The notes below the pieces were generated by a model that saw only the letters and a program-made list of their open reading frames with translations, searched no databases and was not told where the DNA came from. A DNA stretch of 64,000 nucleotides from Scytalidium lignicola (lineage: Eukaryota; Ascomycota; Leotiomycetes). Numbering within the stretch: the first letter of the stretch is position 1; every line of letters begins with the position of its first letter. Positions 30,092 to 38,884 of this stretch are shown piece by piece. The stretch lies in NCBI GenBank assembly GCA_002812745.2, contig NCSJ02000122.1:1-64000 (forward strand). The letters run 5' to 3'. A program made the position numbers and the translations under genes.

Positions 30092-33000
30092 TCACAGATA
30101 AAACATCGTATCCTCCAATTTCGGGTGGATCTTGACGTCCTGGTTCGAAACCGCCGTACCTCCAGTAGTAGTACTACCAGCGATGGGATCAAACACGCTG
30201 CTGAGATAGCATCTGGCCCGCTCACATGCAAGATCAGCGTAGTAAGCTGGTGGACAAATGCTCACAGCCTTAGTGGCACGAGCGAAGAGATAGCACATGT
30301 TATGTGTAAGATCCTCCAAAGAGTCCGCAGGATTTGGGTACGGGTGGGGAGCTTTCAGCGTCGGTTTATTGCCAAAGATTTCGTCAAGAACAACGTAATA
30401 ATGTGCCGGCTTGGCTGTTCCTTGAAGACAGGTATGGGCCTGCAAGAAGAAGTCCCAGTTCCACATACTTGTCACGCCACGGTCGACGACAGTACCATTC
30501 TTCGGGTTGGCACTGCGATCTGCTTCTTCCTCTCTGGTTGGATAGAATCGTGTATTATGACGCTTGCCAACGATAATGATTGAGATCTTTGGGAGTCCAT
30601 GTTTTGTCTGTTCTTTTGTATAGTGACCTTTGCAAGCCTCGCGGATGCAGGGAAGTTCTGTGCTAAGAACAAGGCCATACTGACCCTCAGAGACTCCATC
30701 ACGATAAACAATGATGTTTTCTGGTGCGAGGTTTCTGTTGTTCTTTTTCCATAGAGAAATTCGAGTTCGTACCATCTCGGTCAATGCCTCTACCATCTCC
30801 TTTCGTCCTGTCTGTACATTGAGTATTCCGGGAAACTGCGAGAGGTCGCTGCTAGTACTCGCAACCACAGCTGCAACGCTGGGTGCTTCCGAGGTAGAGC
30901 CTGGTGAGGGATGTGTGACATCAATACCAATAACCATCGTCTTTCCATCGCCAATGATTCCCAATTTCCTTGTATCCAAAGCCTGGTTCGTGCCGCGCAA
31001 CTTGCTGTTCACCTTGAGAGCGATGTTGGCCAGGTACTGGTCAAGTGCATTCCCTTTACTCAATGCTTTTGACACCTTTGAATAAATCGCACAGACTGTA
31101 TGGATGCCATGAATAATATCACCAGCCTTCTTCACTGCGTTGTAGATGGCAGCTTCGGTATCTGGGAGAAGAACAAAGACAAATTCGCATTTCCTCTTGG
31201 AAATTTGTTCCATAATATTCAGTATGCGTTGCTCATTGTATTCATCTCCACGTTGTTGGCGTCCATTGACTGTATTGACTGCATCTCCCCTGACCACTTC
31301 AAGAGATGGCCCATCAATTCGAGCTGTCAAAAGGAGACCTGAGTCGGCCATCATCTGCGAAAGCTTATCAAGTATTGGCTTCAGCTCCTGCGCGTCTCCA
31401 CCCTGGCCCTGTCTTTTGATCCAGAGGCAAGTCCACAGTGGGACCTTTTGTGGACATTTCGCAAATTTCACACCCCTCATATTCCAGGATCCATCTGATG
31501 GGTCTCTGGTGTTGGTTCGGTATTTGAGTTGTGGTGGAGGGAGTACACGACCCGGGACAGTAATGAGATTCAACGAATCGACATTTATGCCATATGAATC
31601 CTAATGTGTCCAGTAAGTAGTTATCAGTATTGACATAGAGAGGGAAGCTTACGAGTAGAGGATGATTTAGACTTAATACGGTTGGTGAATCGCTAGTGAT
31701 TGAACTTGCATTCAGGAACGGCTTTCTGCAAGCAAACTGGATCATGTTCTTGGTTTGTTCAGGGGTGAGCTTTTTCACAGCGACTTGACCTGGTAAGACG
31801 TTACAATAATCTGCAGGAATGTACTTGGGGTCGTCCTTCGTTCCCGTATTCATAACAGGATAGTTCGGGTTTGTAGATTTGTTCCAGACTATCAATTTGT
31901 CAGCGCCTGATAAATTAATACTTGAGAGCTTCCTGGACTTACCACGTTGAAAGTATTCAGATACAGTGATATAACCACTTTGAGGCCCGGTGGTACGGTT
32001 GCCTTTATCGTACCAGAATTGGACGTCCTTCGGACCAGCACCAGGTCTAGCAATTTTTGGTCGACGATTCTGAGGCATCTTTGATCCATCTCCTCGTCCG
32101 GCTAGAGCAATAATTGTCTTCGGTCTGGTTGATCCATTTTTCTTAGGAGGAATATGGGTTGCCTCAACACGCACTTTCTTAAGGAATCTCTCCAGCTCAT
32201 GAACATTTCCATGGTGTGCCCTTTGGAAGTCATCGATAAGCGCAGTGAGAGGGCCAGGACGGAAAAAAGCAGCATGCTTTATTTGAACGTTGAGTAGCAT
32301 TCGACCAGTACCTTGGCGCGCACTGCGAATATATCCACGAAGCGCAACGAGACCTGCTCCGAGATTCCACTCAATATGTTTCGGTCCTGTAATTGGGAAA
32401 TGTCTATTGGCCTGAGAGGTACTGATGGTGGGATCAGAACGAGGAGTGTAACCCATGAGAATATTGAGACCTTGCGTGATCTCTTGTCTCTTGTCTTCAG
32501 TGAAATTTGGGTTAACTTCAATTTTTCCAAGATATGTGAGAAGACCTGATACATCCAGCGCGCCAGTATAGTCTATTTGAATAGTGTGGGGGGCCGTGTT
32601 TGGTCTGGGCTCATCTTCACCTTCATTACGATAGATGAGTTGAACCTGCATGTTGTCAAATTTCTTTGGGCTAATGATGATTGCTCCAAAGTCAGTAACA
32701 CAACCCCTCAGGAGTGGATTTTCCATAAGAAGCTTGAAGATCTGTCGAAGCTTTCCTCCTTTTGCTTCAGGGCTGACCTTGACTTCATAACGATATAGAA
32801 CAACATCTGGCTTCACCGAAAAGTTGTAATAGTTTGCCCAGAGAACGACAGGCTTTCCTTTGGTTCCATAGCCTGGTCGAATAGGAAACGCCTTCAGAGA
32901 CAGTCCCGAGAGTTGACCCTCAAGTGTTGATCGTTGTTGCATGAATGCATCCTCTAGTCGAGTCACATCGGGATTTGGCGGATCGAAGTTCCCATCTCTA

Positions 33001-33344
33001 CAACTAAGGGTTAGTAGAGGCAACAATGATCAATTAAAGCAGTTGAAAGACACTCACCCATATATTCCTCCGCCGCCGCCGCCACCACCTCCTCCTCCTC
33101 GTGGCTGGCCTCGGCCGCCTCTATATCCACCATCACCTTGAGGACCACCTCCTCTAAATGTGCCGCGTCCTGAGTCCCCTCTTCCTCTGGGAGGACCTCC
33201 GCCACGACCACCATCTTGACCACCTCTTGGAGGGCCTCCACTGCCACGTCCACCACCACCTCTATCACCTCTACCACCGCCGCCTCGTGGGCCACCTCCA
33301 CCTCTTCCACGCCCTTGACCCCATCCTCTCTGTTCAGAAGACAT
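30092..33344 (-). CDS. Argonaute protein (QDE-2/AGO1-like)
   Basis: Four exons (33058-33344, 31943-32997, 31653-31906, 30092-31600) give 1034 residues. The first about 90 residues are an almost pure RGG/GPR repeat region. Then follow the N domain (LWANYYNFSVKPDVVLYRYEV), the PAZ region, the linker PGRVLPPPQLKYR, and MID and PIWI domains. PIWI holds the catalytic tetrad: Asp in IGIDVTHP near residue 760, Glu in TGRKEMVEAL, Asp in VYRDGVSEGQY, and Asp in YYADLACERAR, so slicing should be possible. It would bind small RNAs and guide silencing of viruses and transposons in the cytoplasm. It is head to head with a dicer-like gene 958 bases away. No frame lesion is seen. Confidence 0.95.
33058..33344 (-). 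repeat. RGG/GR-rich low-complexity coding repeat of the Argonaute N-terminus
   Basis: Exon 1 of the Argonaute encodes mostly Gly and Arg (RGG, GGPPRG units) ending in a run of about ten Gly codons. Such tails bind RNA and are targets of arginine methylation in other proteins; that use here is inferred. Confidence 0.7.
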
Positions 33345-37300: not shown

Positions 37301-38884
37301 AGATAAAGGCGATATCAGTCCATACTGCCACAGCAGAGAATATGTCTCTTGAGTATGCCGATTGCTCTCGTCTTATNCCCCCCCATTACACATCGCGTTT
37401 GGAGATCCTTCCTGGCCCTTGACCTGCACAACTCTATTTTACGCGGCGTAGGCTTCAACGATATTGACTACATCATAACTGCAACAAATTCGCCGTCCGC
37501 GAATGAGGCTACCAACTACCAGCGACAAGAATTTATTGGTGATTCAGTTCTGAAATACCTAGCATCTGTGAATCTCTTTGTCACAAAACCGACCTGGCCA
37601 GAGGGCTTTTTGTCCCGAAAAAAAGACAAAATTGTTTCCAATGCACGGCTTTCCCGTGCAGCAGTGGAATCTGGCTTGGATAGATATATCTTCACGAAGG
37701 TTTTCACAGCGAGGAAGTGGTGTCCGGCCTATATCTCAGATTACAGCACAGATGGCGAAGCTTCCAAACGCATGATGTCAACGAAAACACTTGCTGATGT
37801 CGTTGAAGCATTGATAGGAGGTGCGTTCATGGAAGATGGGGTTGACAAGGCTTTACGTTGCGCGAGATCCTTCCTGCCTGATGAGCTTGCGGATGAGACA
37901 CCGGCTCAGTTGCTCGACAGTGGAATCCCTATTCTCGACGAAATTGTTGCCCCCAACGCATACACCTCTGAGATCGAGACACTAATTGGGTATGAATTCA
38001 AATACAGGTCTCTGCTCATCGAAGCTATGATACATCCTTCGTTTGAGTGCGGCAAAACCACAATGTCCTACCAACGACTTGAATTTCTCGGTGACGCAGT
38101 TCTAGATATGGTTATAATCAACTATTTGACTCAACATGCACGACACTTACCCCATCAGCAAATGCATCTTGTCAAAACTGCTATGGTGAACACCGGGTAC
38201 CTTGCCTACCTCTGCATGGACACTTCGATGGATATGCCAGGCAAGGTAGAAGTGTTACAGAGCCATGGAAATAAATACGAAACGGTTGCGAGCACCAGAA
38301 AAGTCCGCTTGTGTCAATATATGAAGCACAACATCGCCCCGATTCTAGAGGCTAGTCTAGATCGATACAATGCGCTGCAGCCTCAAATCCAGGAGGAAAT
38401 ATCCCACGGTACAGAATATCCCTGGACGGAACTGTCAAGTCTTGTACCTGAGAAATTCATGGCTGACATGATCGAATCAATTATGGGTGCTATTATCATC
38501 GACACTTGTGGGGATCTAACAGCGTGTAACCGTGTCGCTGAGAAGCTTGGCATTCTGAAGTATCTTCAGCGTATCATTGACGAGGAAGTCGACCTCCTTC
38601 ATCCGAAAAATGTACTTGGAGAATTAGTGTCTGCCCAGGGGAAGAATGTCAGATACGATGTCGTGAAGAATGCAGAGACGGGGTATGTGACGTGTACTGT
38701 GTTTATTGATGAAGTAGAGGCGATGGAGGTTACAGACGCTAGGTCTGATGATGAAGCGACGACCAAGGCAGCAAGCTTGACATTAGAGCGTATTAGGACG
38801 GCAAATCCAGTTGAAGAAATGGATTTGAGTGATGATATGAACTCTGAGACTGACGATAGAGTAAAACTTGGGCCTACGGACTAG
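34303..38884 (+). CDS. dcl2: Dicer-like protein 2 type ribonuclease III
   Basis: Six exons (34303-34479, 34533-34561, 34622-34670, 34743-34995, 35053-35200, 35247-38884) give about 1430 residues. Order: helicase with GSGKT (about residue 64) and DEAH (about 168), helicase C with VLEEGIDV and QRRGRARKD (about 490), dicer dimerisation domain, and two RNase III domains. RNase IIIa has QEFIGDSVL and ADVVEALIGG; RNase IIIb has LEFLGDAVLD and ADMIESIMGA, so all acidic metal ligands are kept. No clear PAZ is visible, which fits fungal Dcl2. At 37377 an N precedes seven C; dropping one C joins the two frames, so the gene is taken as intact. It cuts double-stranded RNA into siRNAs for the adjacent Argonaute. 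Confidence 0.93.
37377..37384. other. Unresolved base and C-run causing a false frameshift in dicer
   Basis: The N at 37377 followed by CCCCCCC shifts the frame by one. Sequence on both sides is continuous dicer protein (RL-PPITHRV joins with one C fewer), so this is an assembly artefact. Confidence 0.8.

Follow-up and report, generated by a model that had tools for sequence, protein, structure and literature searches.

Linked Argonaute and dicer-like 2 genes in Scytalidium lignicola and their recurrence in Xylogone and Pseudogymnoascus

Introduction

In Neurospora, both dcl-2 and qde-2 are induced by virus and by dsRNA; on viral infection the rise is strong for dcl-2 and moderate for qde-2, and the QDE-2 protein, which dropped with one virus, can fall while DCL-2 rises (PMC7648066). 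The locus tags of the two genes, NCU04730 and NCU06766, are distant from each other (PMC4890784). An earlier note on the present DNA likewise described the Neurospora genes as occupying different loci and being co-induced. Linkage is not needed for co-induction, since Neurospora induces both genes despite their distant tags. Published papers place Argonaute (AGO) and dicer-like 2 (DCL2) genes apart in the five ascomycetes consulted, and in the literature searched we found no published report of an AGO-DCL2 pairing. Here we describe a linked slicer Argonaute and DCL2 in the saprotrophic fungus Scytalidium lignicola, which is a new arrangement of known parts.

Results

The two genes lie head-to-head within the window, i.e., the whole stretch of 64,000 nt that was analyzed, with Argonaute on the minus strand, DCL2 on the plus strand and 958 bases between the start codons. 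The earlier note had reported this layout, with outward transcription, and had stated that both enzymes retain their catalytic residues; the coordinates proved correct, and the slicer tetrad as well as both RNase III ligand sets are present.

The Argonaute gene (QDE-2 type, B7463_g6697) occupies 30092..33344 on the minus strand, with the start codon at 33344 and the stop at 30092-30094. Its splice model has four exons (33344-33058, 33003-31943, 31888-31653 and 31600-30092) encoding 1030 aa, and the deposited protein B7463_g6697 (P0121) is identical to this model, letter for letter, over 1030 aa. In translation, the N-terminal exon (33058..33344, minus strand) is RGG-rich; a comparable RGG stretch is found upstream of the match to a second S. 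lignicola Argonaute on C159. A profile search detected ArgoN, ArgoL1, ArgoL2 and Piwi above the cut-off, with PAZ (22.6 bits, cut-off 28.8, E 1.1e-4) and Mid (24.4 bits, cut-off 27.5, E 3.5e-5) falling under it. The slicer tetrad DEDD/H is complete and involves D755, E796, D829 and D984, with minus-strand codons at 30920-30922, 30797-30799, 30698-30700 and 30233-30235, respectively (span 30233..30922). The top PDB sequence match is QDE-2 (2yhb, E 4.7e-97); the QDE-2 MID-PIWI forms a long branch in the AGO tree, and the linked AGO is a candidate for a QDE-2 orthologue in the strict sense.

The dicer-like 2 gene (B7463_g6698) occupies 34303..38884 on the plus strand, from a start codon at 34303 to a stop at 38882-38884, and was identified from DCL2 matches, with the gene model picked by hand from 10 open ones. 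Introns are predicted at 34480-34526, 34562-34621, 34671-34742, 34996-35052 and 35201-35246 (plus strand). The protein contains Helicase_C, Dicer_dimer and two Ribonuclease_3 stretches, the helicase retains DTGSGKT and DEAH, and the metal ligands E, D, D, E are complete in both RNase III domains. Their plus-strand codons start at 37529, 37541, 37796 and 37805 in RNase IIIa (37529..37807) and at 38081, 38093, 38465 and 38474 in RNase IIIb (38081..38476). The reading frame shifts at an N inside a run of C (37377..37377). This break is probably an assembly ambiguity, because the two flanking open frames match Xylogone DCL2 almost without a gap between them (residues 898 and 902) and the deposited model B7463_g6698 leaves out the spot.

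The gap between the start codons (33345..34302, 48.6% GC) has a single match in the S. lignicola genome, and a repeat or a piece of a transposon was rejected on this ground. The earlier note had pointed to a palindrome and a repeated motif in the gap, and both exist as it described: the palindrome TACACGTGTA, which we take to be an E-box core, lies at 33748..33757, with an extra TACACGTG at 33497, and the repeated motif GCGACAGAYA occurs on the plus strand as GCGACAGACA (33518..33527) and GCGACAGATA (34051..34060). In 100 shuffles of the window, 0 copies of TACACGTGTA were expected, while for the repeated motif the expectation was 0.19 and two copies appeared in 1 of 100 shuffles; both motifs had been chosen after the sequence was seen. 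Neither one carries a specific signal. TACACGTGTA is over-represented but not specific, since it occurs at 228 places genome-wide compared with 34 for its reversed control, and GCGACAGAYA is not enriched across the genome (80 matches versus 95 for the reversed control). The gap contains 21 direct near-repeats, compared with 18.8 on average in null sequences, of which 76 out of 200 reached that count; its 10-base palindromes number 2 against 0.79 expected. Whole-length searches of the 9.9 kb regions surrounding each of the 7 remaining RNAi loci found GCGACAGAYA in none, TACACGTG in 3, and CACGTG in 6, the exception being the C159 Argonaute. We therefore rejected the motifs as evidence of shared control, as TACACGTGTA is common genome-wide, GCGACAGAYA is not enriched and both were picked post hoc. 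A scan of the gap for bacterial-type promoters and terminators, ill-suited to a fungus, gave nothing above chance, and no Rfam match to a structured RNA reached gathering thresholds in the window.

The pair had also been presented as both core silencing enzymes of the fungus. Both are present, although not as the sole ones, as three loci each for Argonaute, Dicer and RdRP were found in the S. lignicola genome; among these, the labels DCL1-type (C550) and SMS-2-type (C39) were assigned by exclusion. A second AGO (C159) and a second DCL2 (C321) are unlinked, and AU tests rejected a recent duplication within the S. lignicola genome for both genes (AGO p 3.4e-33, DCL2 p 1.0e-29). The C321 DCL2 carries three in-frame TAG stops; RIP is unsupported as their source, because its indices resemble those of the other RNAi genes. 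Given these premature stops, the linked pair may, judging from sequence, carry the only working DCL2 of S. lignicola.

Gene order was then compared among relatives. All 6 named clade members with both proteins listed have AGO and DCL2 on contigs of equal size, and the 6 contig sizes common to the 120 listed AGO rows (of 932 matches) and the 120 listed DCL2 rows (of 1218 matches) all belong to members of this linked clade. The matches were drawn from candidate sets of capped size and grouped into 90% clusters, so that the name and the longest contig of a row may come from different members, and species may carry further Argonautes beyond those listed. Locus tags are consecutive in 4 of the 6, Scytalidium and three Pseudogymnoascus (g6697/g6698, VE03_00457/00456, V501_09952/09951 and VF21_03237/03238); for the remaining two, Xylogone and P. 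australis, linkage is read from a common contig instead. The relatives in the six-member set may likewise be arranged head-to-head. Outside the clade, AGO and DCL2 contigs differ in all 13 species that are represented by a single-member row in each list, comprising 12 compared single-member pairs and Aspergillus pseudoustus (64395 versus 196120). This comparison excluded Aspergillus fumigatus, A. wentii and A. ochraceoroseus, because each of their clusters has several members; the tags of A. ochraceoroseus (AOCH_005111 and AOCH_004535) are non-consecutive. The pairing thus recurs in Xylogone and Pseudogymnoascus and is not peculiar to one strain. This supports the fixed pairing that the earlier note had considered, and the refuting condition set there, a pair confined to a single strain, does not apply. 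Searches of viral_contigs (query P0121) and genome_contigs (query P0124) returned no DNA of relatives.

In the trees, the linked AGO and the linked DCL2 each fall in a well-supported clade. Among the matches listed, the clade AGO is present without the clade DCL2 in Trizodia and Dothideomycetidae sp. 11243, and Sarcosagium shows the reverse. NCBI taxonomy places the Dothideomycetidae record in another class and gives no class for Trizodia and Sarcosagium.

Discussion

On balance, we favor the explanation that the locus is an old, co-inherited Leotiomycetes AGO-DCL2 pair for making and using siRNAs, in which the divergent gap probably lets both genes respond to dsRNA. Based on its family, DCL2 would process mycoviral or transposon-derived double-stranded RNA to siRNAs for use by the adjoining slicer-competent Argonaute; an antiviral siRNA role of the pair is reasonable on the same grounds of family membership. 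The single 958-base gap with its divergent layout would probably allow a joint response of both genes to dsRNA. Shared control through the gap is plausible, but the named motifs carry no specific signal for it or for the balanced expression from one promoter that the earlier note had in mind.

The conserved adjacency could simply be inherited gene order. It is credible, if not probable, that the two genes were neighbors in a Leotiomycetes ancestor and were never separated, each keeping its own promoter and control. The motifs offer no evidence to the contrary, Neurospora achieves co-induction without adjacent tags, and 958 bases would leave room for two promoters. However, the genes have stayed adjacent even though the proteins of Scytalidium and Pseudogymnoascus have diverged widely, with identities of 53-55% for AGO and of 46-48% for DCL2 in the longer rows (43% in the shorter P. 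australis model), and the literature shows the genes apart in five other ascomycetes. The scattering of RNAi genes in those five species contrasts with the conserved pairing of slicer and Dicer described here.

A bolder and rather improbable extension of the favored co-inherited pair is a self-contained RNAi cassette, whose two genes selection would hold together under a single two-way promoter responsive to dsRNA and which would be inherited, or perhaps occasionally transferred, as a unit, like travelling bacterial defence genes; in S. lignicola it would have replaced a decaying dispersed DCL2. We consider it unlikely that the cassette has spread in part by horizontal transfer, with either both genes or a single one moving between unrelated fungi. 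Sarcosagium does fall in the DCL2 clade, and Trizodia and the Dothideomycetes record fall in the AGO clade, but among the matches listed no row outside Leotiomycetes has both clade genes, and mislabelling or mixing of assemblies may account for these three records. Furthermore, the AU test does not reject trees with Dothideomycetidae 11243 (AGO, p 0.087) or Sarcosagium (DCL2, p 0.55) outside the others. An assembly artefact or a non-functional locus, to which the DCL2 frame shift at an N and the single draft assembly of 664 contigs might point, is highly improbable, as AGO and DCL2 contigs agree in size in five further assemblies and the frames flanking the N come almost end to end when aligned to Xylogone DCL2.

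With its siRNA maker and user physically paired across relatives, the locus provides a testable case of whether selection keeps slicer and Dicer in balance or in linkage. The 958-base gap, read in two directions, is a natural reporter for dsRNA-induced transcription, and the stop-bearing C321 DCL2 makes it possible to ask whether a dispersed module is superseded by a linked one.

Among known systems, the antiviral RNAi of Neurospora crassa (QDE-2/DCL-2) resembles the S. lignicola pair in having a DCL2-type Dicer and in QDE-2 being the best PDB match, whereas its locus tags are distant (PMC4890784) and the S. lignicola genes are adjacent. Cryphonectria parasitica AGL2/DCL2 likewise combines one Dicer with one Argonaute, in an inducible antiviral pathway (PMC4182546), and induction there is described as requiring DCL2 and SAGA (PMC7648066). 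Divergent pairs of functionally related genes with bidirectional promoters in Ascomycota share the layout of two related genes reading outward from one gap (PMC7653285); the term "rnai" is absent from the main text of that source. In Capronia epimyces, an Argonaute and a DCL2 (A1O3_00328 and A1O3_00330) have contigs of equal size and are two locus tags apart, differing from the S. lignicola pair by one tag in between, and both belong to the other AGO and DCL2 lineages, which also contain the unlinked S. lignicola genes on C159 and C321. The presence of neighboring related genes in some distant relatives suggests an old RNA-interference pair that was kept together.

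The linked gene pair in S. lignicola

The Argonaute gene (33344 to 30092, minus strand, three introns) and the Dicer-like 2 gene (DCL2; 34303-38884, plus strand, five predicted introns) are divergently oriented, with 958 bases from start codon to start codon. By sequence reading both encode the full set of catalytic residues, and the expected domains were detected in both proteins, with the Argonaute PAZ and Mid domains under the Pfam cut-offs. The gene coordinates and residues agree with the earlier note, which had described a divergent, catalytically complete pair. Sequence identity matched the Argonaute to the deposited Scytalidium lignicola protein B7463_g6697, the Dicer is B7463_g6698, and one 119,810-base contig encodes both proteins. 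PMC6256649 reports a draft genome for strain DSM 105466, which may be the same assembly. At 37377, an N within a run of C, DCL2 switches reading frame, which we read as an assembly ambiguity because the flanking frames match Xylogone DCL2, one up to residue 898 and the other from residue 902.

Elsewhere in the window, a gene with a heterokaryon incompatibility (HET) domain lies at 51930-54029 on the plus strand, about 13 kb from DCL2. An AT-rich stretch (54001-58000, 37-41% GC) contains a weak Integrase_H2C2 match (54772-55419) and short tandem repeats (56107-57038), and an array of roughly 17 CTA triplets (48904-48957) adjoins several N positions.

Linkage in other fungi

Linkage was judged from contigs of equal size and from the locus tags carried by protein-search matches, comparing the best 120 of 932 Argonaute matches with the best 120 of 1218 DCL2 matches. 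Among the matches listed, the same contig size occurred in both lists in six cases: S. lignicola, Xylogone sp. PMI_703, Pseudogymnoascus 23342-1-I1, 05NY08 and VKM F-4519, and P. australis. Locus tags were consecutive in four of these, while in Xylogone and P. australis linkage was read from the common contig. The pairing, examined for uniqueness to one strain, thus recurs in Xylogone and Pseudogymnoascus, and all six cases fall in a single Argonaute clade and a single DCL2 clade. Nine more named clade members each appeared in one list alone among the matches listed, namely three Pseudogymnoascus Argonautes, Trizodia and Dothideomycetidae sp. 11243 in the Argonaute list, and three Pseudogymnoascus DCL2s and Sarcosagium in the DCL2 list. 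A normal-length clade DCL2 from Trizodia and 11243 would be expected among the matches listed, so its absence counts against universal pairing. Six metagenome proteins, of those placed in the tree, also belong to the Argonaute clade.

Outside the clades, the two genes were on different contigs in 13 of 13 species (single-member rows among the matches listed; 12 compared together, plus A. pseudoustus read from both lists). In the Eurotiomycete Capronia epimyces, detected with a shorter query, an Argonaute and a DCL2 (A1O3_00328 / A1O3_00330) are two tags apart on a contig of 4,994,026 bases. Both derive from the other Argonaute and DCL2 lineages, and their linkage either arose a second time or survives from an older linkage.

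Gene lineages and the second gene set

Three loci each were found in S. lignicola for Argonaute (contigs C25, which holds the window, C159 and C39), Dicer (C25, C321 and C550) and RdRP (C82, C51 and C71). In trees, the window genes form strongly supported clades separate from the C159 Argonaute, which clusters with Aspergillus fumigatus, Capronia and Macrophomina, and from the C321 DCL2, which clusters with Capronia, Microthyrium and Aspergillus. Derivation of the pair by local copying would make the two S. lignicola copies of each gene sisters, which the AU test rejected for both Argonaute (p 3.4e-33) and DCL2 (p 1.0e-29); the linked pair is therefore an old lineage. Each gene of the pair may simply belong to its usual lineage in Leotiomycetes: in full-length trees the linked Argonautes group with Helotiales Argonautes with a support of 98, a grouping absent from the PIWI-end tree, and the AU test does not reject a tree that unites the linked DCL2s with Phialocephala and Hyaloscypha DCL2s (p 0.20).

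A Dothideomycetes record lies inside the linked Argonaute clade (P0132) and Sarcosagium inside the linked DCL2 clade (P0245). Trees placing them apart were not rejected (AU p 0.087 and 0.55, respectively); transfer, mislabelling or a mixed assembly may account for these records.

The second set is unlinked in S. lignicola, since its genes are on distinct contigs and far from the nearest contig ends (about 21 kb for the C159 Argonaute, about 72 kb for the C321 DCL2). This DCL2 (3067-7361, minus strand, in L026, a stretch of C321) contains three in-frame TAG codons (L026 6848, 3894 and 3459) within well-aligned conserved stretches, with no evident frameshift in the main exon; the only stop in the C159 Argonaute is inside a normal-looking intron. 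GT-AG introns can be drawn over the first and third TAG codons, with loss of conserved residues or a poor donor, and the RIP indices are ordinary, giving no support to RIP as the cause of the stops. The C321 gene is likely a young pseudogene in this assembly. If this one draft assembly is right, we infer that, among the DCL2-type Dicers found, the linked one alone has an open frame, bar its own N.

Function and control

Judging by family, DCL2 would produce siRNAs from dsRNA and Argonaute would slice RNA matching them; the divergent layout could allow easy joint induction. The two motifs that the earlier note named in the gap lend no help to shared control. The palindrome TACACGTGTA, present for example in the window at 33748-33757, occurs at 228 places in the genome versus 34 for a reversed control palindrome (about 6.7x); being over-represented throughout, it is not specific and is perhaps a common E-box site. 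GCGACAGAYA is not enriched genome-wide (80 versus 95 for its reversed control), and the 958-base gap has no excess of repeats. We consider shared control of the two genes slightly favored over independent control.

No report of a linked fungal Argonaute-DCL2 pair appeared among the open-access titles and abstract openings listed, a scope with subscription papers mostly outside it; on this evidence the parts are known and the conserved arrangement appears to be so far undescribed. In published gene sets, tags or positions of the two genes are non-adjacent in Sclerotinia sclerotiorum (PMC6694225, PMC5923508), Sordaria macrospora (PMC8274715), Colletotrichum higginsianum and Neurospora crassa (PMC4890784), the last in line with the different loci given in the earlier note, and in Verticillium nonalfalfae 1.3 Mb of chromosome 3 separates AGO2 from DCL2 (PMC6572790). 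Divergent pairs with bidirectional promoters are called common in yeast in PMC7653285. PMC7648066 states that in Neurospora dcl-2 and qde-2 are both induced by dsRNA, as the earlier note had said, that viral infection brings a strong rise in dcl-2 and a moderate one in qde-2, that with one virus DCL-2 rises while QDE-2 protein falls, and that induction in Cryphonectria is said to require DCL2 and SAGA. On these accounts, co-induction in Neurospora requires no linkage.
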